In this document: positions 13,073 through 18,145 of the stretch, piece after piece
Layout of the letters: every line of letters begins with the position of its first letter
Numbering within the stretch: position 1 is the stretch's first letter
NCBI GenBank assembly: GCA_003550425.1
Contig: PUKE01000069.1
Coordinates: 1 to 39,026 of the forward strand
Origin: Nitriliruptoria bacterium
GTDB lineage: Bacteria > Actinomycetota > Nitriliruptoria > Euzebyales > Egibacteraceae
Direction of reading: 5' to 3'
DNA: 39,026 bases
Translations under genes and position numbers: made by a program
Notes under the pieces: model-generated
What the model saw: the letters and a program-made list of their open reading frames with translations, nothing else
Databases searched by the model: none
What the model was told of the DNA's origin: nothing

Positions 13073-13615
13073 TCACGAGGCCTCGGGCGCGGGATCGTCG
13101 AGGTCGGCTGGCGCCCCGCGCAGCACCGCCAGCAGGCCCCAGCCGTAGGCGTCGACCGCCCGCGGCGACATCGCCTCGTGCTCGCGGTCGCCGTCCAGCG
13201 CGACGCGGCAGCGGAAGCGGCCGTCCACGCGGCGCAGGGCACGGAAGCGCTCGCCGAGGCGCTCGCGCAGCTGCCCCTCGGTCGGCAGCCAGACGACCTC
13301 CTGCTGGCGGATGGCGTCGAGCGCCCACTCCACGGCGCCGTTGAAGGTCAGGATCTGGCCCCCGGGCGCGCGGCGCACGTCCACGCTCATCGGGCTGATG
13401 AGGAAGGTGTGCTCGTCCAGCTGGGCCTCGGGGATGAGGAACCGGTCGCCCTGGCGGGGCTCCCATTCCAGGCCCGCGTCGCGGAGGCGGCGCGCGAGGT
13501 GCAGCGACAGCAGCGGCTCGCCCTCGTCGGGATCGTCGACGGCGGCGTCGTCCACGGCCCACACCCAGGAGCCGGGCTCGTGGCGCTCGTCGCCGGGTGC
13601 GGTGTCGGGTGGCAC
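13073..13615 (-). CDS. Conserved actinobacterial hypothetical protein (sometimes labelled CpaE-like)
   Basis: A 180-residue soluble acidic protein. GTG at 13615 follows AAGGAG with good spacing. Visible segments are LHLARRLRDAGLEWEPRQGDRF, LDEHTFLISPMSVDVR, LTFNGAVEWALDAI, VVWLPTEGQLRERLGERFRAL and a final strand RFRCRVAL. From memory, similar actinobacterial proteins carry a label as pilus assembly protein CpaE, but there is no P-loop or receiver domain here, so that name is not justified by the sequence. Function unknown; it starts 71 bases from tRNA-Leu and is followed by the HIRAN-like gene. Confidence 0.75.
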   Translation of the reverse strand: MPPDTAPGDERHEPGSWVWAVDDAAVDDPDEGEPLLSLHLARRLRDAGLEWEPRQGDRFLIPEAQLDEHTFLISPMSVDVRRAPGGQILTFNGAVEWALDAIRQQEVVWLPTEGQLRERLGERFRALRRVDGRFRCRVALDGDREHEAMSPRAVDAYGWGLLAVLRGAPADLDDPAPEAS

Positions 13616-13874: not shown

Positions 13875-15116
13875 ATGGCTCACGACGAAGAGCGCCTCGC
13901 GCTGTTCCTGGACTACGAGAACCTCGCCATCGGGGCCCGGGAGGACCACAAGGGCTTCAGCTTCGACCTCAAGCCCGTGGCCGATGTGCTCGCCGAGCGC
14001 GGCCGCGTCGTGGTGCGCCGGGCCTACGCCGACTGGTCGTACTTCGAGGCCGACCGGCGGATGCTCACCGAGCACCACGTCGAGCTGATCGAGATCACCC
14101 AGCGGCTCAAGCACCAGCGCAAGAACGCCGCCGACATCAAGCTCGCCGTCGACGCGATCGAGCTGAGCTTCGAGCGCGACTACATCACGACCTTCGTCAT
14201 CGCCACCGGCGACAGCGACTTCACCCCGCTGGTGGACAAGCTGCGGGCGCTCAACAAGCGCGTGGTCGGGGTGGGCATGGAGTCCTCGACCTCTGGCCTG
14301 CTGCCTCCGGCGTGCGACGAGTTCATGTTCTACGAGCGCCTGGAGGGCGTGGACCTCAAGCCCTCGCGCGGGCGTGGGCGCGGGCGTCGCGGGCGTGGTG
14401 GCCGTGGCGGCGGCCAGGCGCCACCGGCCGCCGAGGCGCCAGCCGCGGCCGCGGCAGCGCCCGCCGAGCCGGCCGCGCCCGCCGCGACCTCGCCAGCGGA
14501 GGAGGTCGTGCCCGAGCCGCCGGTGGAGCCCGCCGCGCCCGCGCCCGCCGAGGCCGCCGCGGGCGACCTCGGCGCCGAGGAGGAGGACGACGCCGGCGAG
14601 GGCAACGGTGGCGATCCCGAGGACCTCGTCAAGCTCGTGACGCAGACCCTGTCGGGCCTGCAGCGCTCCAGTGGCGGGGCGGTGGTGGCCAGCGCCCTGA
14701 AGCGCGCCATGCTCCGCAAGGACCCGACCTTCAACGAGGCCGACCACGGCTTCCGCGCCTTCGGCGAGCTGCTGCGCCACCTCGAGCACCGCGGGATCGT
14801 CGAGCTGTCCGAGGGCACCGCCCGCGGCGACCCGGAGGTCGCCTTCCCCGAGGCGCACCGCGGCGAGGAGGAGGCCTTCGCGCTGCTGCGCGACACCATC
14901 GCTGACCTCGCGGGCCAAGGCTCGCCGCCGCCGCTGTCGGGGCTCAAGGACCAGCTGCGCAAGCGCGACCCCGGCTTCAGCGAGAAGTCCTACGGCTACG
15001 GCGGGTTCCTCCAGTTCTGCAAGGCCGCCAGGGCGCGCGGGCTCGTCACCATGGAGTGGGACGAGGACGCCGACGACTACGTCCTCGAGCCGGTCCACGA
15101 GGGCGCGTCGAGCTGA
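13875..15116 (+). CDS. NYN-domain putative RNase with RG-rich linker and two OST-HTH-like domains
   Basis: Predicted RNA-acting protein of 413 residues. Residues 5-155 form a NYN/LabA (PIN-like) nuclease domain: LFLDYENLAIG with Asp13, KNAADIKLAVDAIEL with Asp88 and Asp93, and ATGDSDFTPLV with Asp113 and Asp115. These are the acidic residues expected for metal-dependent RNA cleavage. Residues 165-180 are an RG-rich patch ([16 protein letters not shown]), followed by a disordered Ala/Pro/Glu linker to about 245. Two C-terminal modules (about 247-326 and 331-406) share the OST-HTH/LOTUS pattern of a helical start, an L-K-x-x-L/M-R-K-x-D-P-x-F segment, a G-F/Y-x-x-F-x-x-L/F segment and a final strand. 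The layout recalls eukaryotic MARF1 and Limkain-type proteins. RNA target unknown. Confidence 0.85.
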   Translation: MAHDEERLALFLDYENLAIGAREDHKGFSFDLKPVADVLAERGRVVVRRAYADWSYFEADRRMLTEHHVELIEITQRLKHQRKNAADIKLAVDAIELSFERDYITTFVIATGDSDFTPLVDKLRALNKRVVGVGMESSTSGLLPPACDEFMFYERLEGVDLKPSRGRGRGRRGRGGRGGGQAPPAAEAPAAAAAAPAEPAAPAATSPAEEVVPEPPVEPAAPAPAEAAAGDLGAEEEDDAGEGNGGDPEDLVKLVTQTLSGLQRSSGGAVVASALKRAMLRKDPTFNEADHGFRAFGELLRHLEHRGIVELSEGTARGDPEVAFPEAHRGEEEAFALLRDTIADLAGQGSPPPLSGLKDQLRKRDPGFSEKSYGYGGFLQFCKAARARGLVTMEWDEDADDYVLEPVHEGASS

Positions 15117-15153: not shown

Positions 15154-15608
<455 letters not shown>

Positions 15609-15688: not shown

Positions 15689-18141
15689 GTGGTCGATGCC
15701 CGCCTGCGGGCGGGGCTGGCCGCGTCCGAGGCCACCGCGGGGGTGGCCCTCGTGGCCGTCGGCGGCTACGGCGCCGCGCGGCTGTGCCCCCGCAGCGACG
15801 TGGACCTGCTGCTGCTCCACGACGGTCGCGTCGCCGGTGGCCTCGACGCGGTGGTGCGCAGCGTCTGCTACCCCCTGTGGGACGCCGGGATGGCGGTGGG
15901 CCACGCGGTGCGCACCGTGCGCGAGGCGGCCCGCGCCGGCGACGACACGGTCGAGACCGCCACGGCGCTGCTGACCCGCCGGCTCGTGGCCGGCGACCGG
16001 GGGCTGCTCGATCGCCTGGATGCCCGCCTGGCCCGAGCGCCGTCGCGCCAGGGGCGGCAGCTGGTGCAGGCGCTGGGACGCGACGCGCCCGATCGCGCCG
16101 CGCTGCCGGTGGGGCGCCTGGAGCCCGACCTCAAGTGCGATCCTGGCGGCCTGCGCGACCTCGACCGCCTGGAGTGGGCCGCGGCGGGCCTGCTCGGCCG
16201 CCCCTCGCTGGAGGCGCTGGTCGAGACCGGCACGCTGGGCGCGCCGGACCACTCCGCGCTGCGGATGGCCAGGGCGGTGCTGCTCGCCGCCCGCACCGCG
16301 CTGCACCTCACCGACGCGCGGTCCGGCGATCGCCTGCGGCTCGACCTCCATGACGACGTCGCCGCGCGCCTCGGTGGCGAGGCCGATGGGCTGCTGCGCG
16401 CGGTCGGGCTCGCGATGCGGGCGGTGGCCCACGTCGCGGCCCGCGCCTGGCCGCGGCTGCTGGCCGACGCGCAGGGCGGGCGCTCGCGCCCGTCGCCGGC
16501 GCCCCGCCCGGTCGATGACGGCGTCGCCGTGGTGGACGGGCTCGTGACGCTCGCGGCCGAGCGCGACCTGCACGCCGATCCGACGCTGGCGTGGCGCGCG
16601 GTGGCCGCCGCTGCCCGCGAGGGCGCGCACCTGGACCGCCGCACCGCCGAGCGCGTGCGCACCACCTTCGCGAGCGCCCGGCCCTGGTGGGACGACGCCG
16701 CGCGCGACGCGCTGCTCACCACGCTGCGCCAGGGCGAGGCGGGGGTGCGCGCGCTGCGCGACGCCGACCACCTCGGGCTGCTCGTGGCCTACCTGCCCGG
16801 CTGGGAGCGGGTGCGCGGGCTGCCCCAGCGCAACCCCTTCCACCGCTTCGACCTCGACACCCATCTGCTGCACACCGTGGCCTGGCTGGTGGCCATCGGG
16901 GAGGGTGCGCTGGAGCCCGACCACGCGCGGCGCTGGGCGGCGCTGGAGGATCCCGACGCCCTGCTGCTCGCCGCCTGGCTCCATGACGTCGGCAAGGCGT
17001 GGCCCGGCGACCACAGCCTCGTGGGCGCCGAGCTGGTCGCCGAGTGGCTGGCCGACGCCGGGTTCGGCAGCGCCCGGGCCATGCGCGTGGCCAAGCTGGT
17101 GCGGCTGCACCTGCTGCTGCCCGACGTCGCCACGCGCCGCGACCTCGACGATCCCGAGGAGATCGCGGGCGTGGCCGAGGCCGTCGGCGACGCCGAGACC
17201 CTCGACGGCCTGCTGCTGCTCGCGCTCGCCGACGCCCGCGCCACCGGGCCCTCGGTCTGGTCGGCGTGGAAGGACGGGCTGCTGGCCACGCTGCACGCGC
17301 GGGTGCGCGCGGCGCTGCGCGACGACGCCGCGGTCCCCGGCGCGCCGGAGGACACCGCCGCGGCCGCGCGTCGCGTCGCGGCCGCCGCCGGGGCGTCGCA
17401 GGCCGCGGTGGACCGCCTCCTCGCCGACGTGCCCCGCCGCTACGTCGTGGCGGCCAGCGCCGAGCAGATCGCCGCGCACCTCGCCCTGCTCGCCGAGCGC
17501 GCCCCCGACCGGCCGGCCGCCGCGTGGCGGGCCGGCAGCGTGCCCGGCACCGCCGTGCTGTCGGTCGTGGCGCCTGACCGCGTGGGGCTGCTGGCCGCCT
17601 GCGCGGGGATCATCTCGTCCCATGACCTGCGGCTGCTCGATGCCCGCGCGGTCACCAGTGGGCAGGGCACCGCGCTGGACTGGTTCACCGTGGCGGTGGA
17701 CGGCGAGCCGCCCGCGGCGCTCGCTGAGGAGGTCGTCGCGGCGATCGAGGGGGAGGTCGACGTCGCCGCGCGGATCGCGGCCCGCGAGCGGCGCCGCGAC
17801 GCGCGCCTGCCGGCCGAGGCCGCGCTGGCCAAGACCTCGGTGACCGTCGACGCCTCCGGCGACCTGGTGCGCCTGGAGGTGCGGGCGCCCTCGACGCCCG
17901 GGCTGGTGTACCGGCTCACGCGCGCGGTGGCGGACACCGGCATCTCGGTGGCGGGGCTCAAGGCGGAGGTGCTGGGCGCCCAGGCCCGCGTCGCCCTGTT
18001 CTTCCCCGAGCTCGCGGCGGTGCTGCGCGAGACCCTCGTCGCCGCGCTCACCACCGCCGCCGCCCCACCCGACCACCTGCGGCGCGGCCAGGGGGCGCGG
18101 CCGAGCCGAGCGGACGCGCCCGGCTCGGCCGATGGCGCGTC

Positions 18142-18145
<4 letters not shown>
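15689..18145 (+). CDS. glnD: [Protein-PII] nucleotidyltransferase GlnD
   Basis: Bifunctional enzyme that modifies PII at Tyr51 (uridylylation, or adenylylation in actinobacteria) and removes the group. The 818 residues show the nucleotidyltransferase motif [20 protein letters not shown] (Gly25, Gly26, Asp37, Asp39). The HD hydrolase domain follows, with [11 protein letters not shown] and [16 protein letters not shown]. Two C-terminal ACT domains ([18 protein letters not shown] and [19 protein letters not shown]) sense glutamine. GTG 15689 is the first normal start in frame, but in-frame coding-like sequence including WCEAW extends upstream to the glnB stop; a CTG at 15629 is a possible non-standard start. 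The stop codon shares CTAG with the fumC stop. Confidence 0.93.

Follow-up and report, generated by a model that had tools for sequence, protein, structure and literature searches.

Very probably, the product of the gene at 13875..15116 on the forward strand of the window, the 39,026-nucleotide stretch of Nitriliruptoria DNA analysed here, belongs to the bacterial LK-nuclease/OST-HTH family and serves as a housekeeping-type endoribonuclease encoded on the chromosome, in which two C-terminal modules bind RNA and an N-terminal NYN domain cuts it. The most likely role is predicted to be that of a standalone RNA-decay endoribonuclease; by analogy with its relatives, the protein would cleave RNA in a metal-dependent manner and bind it through the modules. 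A housekeeping nuclease is supported by the domain content and its conservation, by the predicted folds and by a wide, mostly single-copy occurrence. The gene and the parts of its product are as follows.

13875..15116, forward strand: NYN nuclease with two OST-HTH/LOTUS modules, 413 amino acids (open reading frame with ATG start, Pfam, 28-sequence alignment, AlphaFold2)
13893..14333, forward strand: NYN (LK-nuclease/DUF88) domain, residues 7-153 (Pfam, Foldseek; conserved D13, D87, D93, D113 and D115)
14346..14615, forward strand: disordered linker, residues 158-247 (pLDDT below 50 over most of 166-237; charge)
14367..14414, forward strand: RG-rich tract, residues 165-180, at the start of the linker (sequence; basic tract conserved in position)
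14616..14849, forward strand: OST-HTH/LOTUS module 1, residues 248-325 (Pfam, 18.7 bits alone; modelled elements ordered as in a winged helix)
14859..15098, forward strand: OST-HTH/LOTUS module 2, residues 329-408 (Pfam, 17.8 bits alone; homology to module 1; models)

The NYN nuclease domain

An earlier note, made from the sequence alone, had placed an NYN domain with its acidic residues intact at residues 5-155, and both parts of that description are borne out. The Pfam family PF01936 matches residues 7-153 with 105.8 bits (E 3.6e-30; cut-off 24.2), and D13, D87, D93, D113 and D115 are each at least 90% conserved in an alignment of 28 sequences, comprising the window protein and 27 of 31 relatives from the genome collection. 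The full-length AlphaFold2 model derived from these sequences (mean pLDDT 79) places the NYN domain at roughly residues 5-157 and one winged helix each at 248-325 and 329-408. In a Foldseek search of the full model against the PDB, the best match was VPA0982 (2qip; E 1.3e-10, TM 0.83 by target length), which shares the NYN fold and whose solved structure is the NYN domain alone. The NYN domains of human and mouse MARF1 (6fdl and 5yaa) ranked second and third with E 8e-6 to 1e-4, and no other PDB entry matched at E below 0.001. The predicted fold superposes on MARF1 NYN and 2qip, a match at the level of the fold, the distances between aspartates being a separate matter. In MARF1, Asp residues of the NYN domain are required for the cleavage of single-stranded RNA (Yao et al., 2018, as cited in PMC10226599).

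The OST-HTH/LOTUS modules

Two related C-terminal OST-HTH/LOTUS modules had also been proposed, with profile searches and structure prediction suggested as checks. PF12872 matches the whole protein over two stretches with 29.8 bits (Pfam, E 5.6e-7), above its cut-off of 23.8, and hhalign relates module 1 to module 2 with a probability of 97.6% (E 3.8e-12, 25% identity); the modules are homologous and therefore products of a duplication. The proposal is thus upheld for the whole protein, although module 1 (18.7 bits, E 0.0016) and module 2 (17.8 bits, E 0.0031), each taken in isolation, match PF12872 below the cut-off. A search of the organism's own genome with PF12872 returned nothing, a false negative since each module is weak alone, and an alignment-based search recovered both modules there.

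When modelled alone by AlphaFold2, the two-module half reached a pLDDT of 90. Against the PDB this model gave no Foldseek match below 0.001, with LOTUS matches at E 0.05 or worse. Its best 50 matches include the LOTUS domains of TDRD7 and Oskar as well as the bacterial OST-HTH structures 2kzv and 2kpm, at TM 0.56-0.81 by target length (TDRD7 3rco 0.81, 2lh9 0.75, Oskar 5a49 0.68-0.72), and winged helices other than LOTUS obtain similar scores. The sequence profile of the alignment weakly selects 2kzv (E 0.16) and 2kpm (E 0.68). Structure prediction yielded two winged helices, and assignment to a different helical family is not what emerged.

Distribution and relation to known systems

NYN turned up, mostly once per genome, in 36 of the 41 close-relative genomes searched, the window's source genome among them. 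The two-module C-terminal half was detected at more than 190 bits in 37 of the 197 near-complete actinobacterial genomes sampled, and a further 17 of the 197 gave single, partial or weak module matches. A gene of this two-module form belongs to the regular complement of part of the actinobacteria, and the protein is of an ordinary, known kind. Among more distant sequences, one from Coriobacteriia (L028) and one from Hydrogenophilaceae (L030) carry one module only. An apparent fusion of the NYN domain to a GGDEF/EAL-looking protein (L035) was rejected as an assembly or masking artefact, because its open frame crosses a run of N.

The combination of NYN/DUF88 (LK-nuclease) and OST-HTH domains in bacteria was described by Anantharaman, Zhang and Aravind (2010), who also proposed a bacterial origin for the domain pair (accessible text of PMC2848206). 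The traits of that family are found here, namely an N-terminal NYN domain, one or two C-terminal OST-HTH domains and conserved acidic residues; the window protein shares with it the duplicated OST-HTH and the standalone gene, and differs in its RG-rich/basic linker tract, which is absent from the description of the family in the same accessible text. The layout had been called MARF1-like in the earlier note. This holds for the nuclease fold, MARF1 NYN being the best match after 2qip, and for the presence of multiple LOTUS domains, as in animal MARF1 (Limkain b1). The layout itself, however, is the described bacterial type: human MARF1 has RRMs and eight LOTUS domains, whereas the window protein has two LOTUS domains and no RRMs (Pfam finds NYN and OST-HTH only), and MARF1 has decapping partners, which bacteria lack. 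DNE1 of Arabidopsis likewise has an NYN domain followed by LOTUS domains but, unlike the window protein, partners the eukaryotic decapping factor DCP1 (PMC10226599). The remark that bacterial examples are predicted but little studied agrees with a search of the open literature, a body lying outside most subscription journals, in which no experimental study or activity was found for a bacterial protein of NYN and OST-HTH architecture.

The linker and its basic tract

A disordered linker was correctly anticipated: pLDDT is below 50 almost throughout 166-237. Its first 30 residues carry a net charge of +7 and its other 61 a net charge of -16, so that a basic tract is followed by a Pro/Ala-rich acidic stretch. 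Of 59 homologues measured, 30 formed the set from the window's class and 27 lay outside it. In every member of the class set, the 30 residues that follow NYN have a net charge of at least +4 (30/30, median +7), and what remains of the linker tends to be acidic (median -5.5); 10 of the 27 homologues outside reach +3 in this tract. With at least five RG/GR dipeptides as the threshold, 11 of the 30 and none of the 27 have an RG-rich tract, and the RG label requires 5-7 changes on the tree. At the DNA level, an imperfect 6-12-base repeat encodes the tract. The RG patch reported earlier is real, at residues 165-180, but its RG form varies among lineages; it is a labile form of a basic tract. As the basic tract is kept while its RG wording drifts, an electrostatic role would fit better than a specific RG motif. 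In three Acidimicrobiia-type sequences (L004, L025 and L026), an RG-rich tract lies in a long C-terminal tail after the LOTUS domains, not after the NYN domain.

It is doubtful that the basic/RG tract and the acidic stretch together form a switchable RNA-binding or condensate-forming element, with the nuclease belonging to a bacterial RNA-decay body. A further idea concerned self-targeting through an RNA quadruplex, G-quadruplex RNA binding having been reported for LOTUS domains across kingdoms (Ding et al., 2020, as cited in PMC8331183). A canonical G-quadruplex motif lies within the RG codons on the coding strand (14370-14393), one of five in the window on both strands. The idea was rejected: the motif is rarely kept, occurring on the coding strand of only four homologous genes, the window's included, and being absent from the sister genome, and there is no excess beyond amino-acid demand when quadruplex potential is compared with synonymous-codon shuffles (mean z -0.11 over 30 genes; p 0.66 for the window).

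Gene neighbourhood and alternative roles

The nuclease gene is flanked by the following features.

13073-13615, reverse strand: open reading frame beyond the tRNA, no Pfam match at 1e-5, 81% identity in the sister genome
13685-13768, reverse strand: tRNA-Leu(TAA), 106 bases from the nuclease ATG
15270-15608, forward strand: P-II (glnB/K), downstream of the nuclease after a gap of about 150 bases
15689-18145, forward strand: GlnD, downstream of the nuclease and P-II

In several relatives the nuclease and P-II are separated by a gap of about 1.4 kb. Within the order, tRNA-Leu(TAA) lies near the nuclease in 16 of 21 loci, some of them clipped at contig ends, and P-II and GlnD follow downstream in the same orientation in 15 of the 21. 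Elsewhere in the class, none of 11 loci has tRNA-Leu, P-II or GlnD beside the nuclease; in other classes no locus has the tRNA there, and the other actinobacterial classes lack P-II and GlnD at this place. The neighbourhood is best read as gene order inherited within the order.

This pattern bears on the improbable alternative of a tRNA- or rRNA-processing nuclease acting on the neighbouring tRNA-Leu(UAA) or on tRNAs generally. Protein-only RNase P is among the NYN/PIN relatives, a kinship that would favour such a role, as would the frequent proximity of the tRNA within the order. The relatives without the tRNA nevertheless keep the nuclease, and where both are present their distance and orientation vary; since the synteny is not conserved with the gene family, it provides no evidence for a tRNA target, and the suggestion to that effect in the earlier note is not sustained.

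A nuclease of anti-phage defence or transposon silencing is more improbable still. A LabA-like NYN model of PADLOC matches weakly (E 5.9e-5), and MARF1 limits retrotransposons in mouse oocytes (abstract of PMC6294520), but the gene is core, mostly single-copy and fixed in its surroundings within the order, and the scanned neighbours (Usp, P-II, GlnD and fumarase) include no toxin-antitoxin or defence gene. Least probable of all is a regulator of P-II and GlnD acting on their mRNA, for which their position downstream in the order is, at best, a faint pointer to nitrogen control, given the separation from P-II in the window and the absence of both genes from these loci beyond the order.

Proposed mode of action and significance

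For the favoured housekeeping endoribonuclease, the two winged-helix modules would bind RNA, possibly at structured or G-rich sites, as the LOTUS domains studied so far suggest, while the disordered linker and basic tract may add unspecific grip on RNA and reach. The NYN domain would then cleave single-stranded RNA close to where the modules bind, using metal ions coordinated by a predicted cluster of aspartates.

In animals and plants, the pair of NYN and LOTUS domains controls mRNA decay. Taking into account this shared pair and its proposed bacterial origin, a bacterial member would offer a simple system for the function of the nuclease. To this the window gene adds little more than a two-module form that is regular in part of the actinobacteria and a basic tract that is conserved in position in one class.
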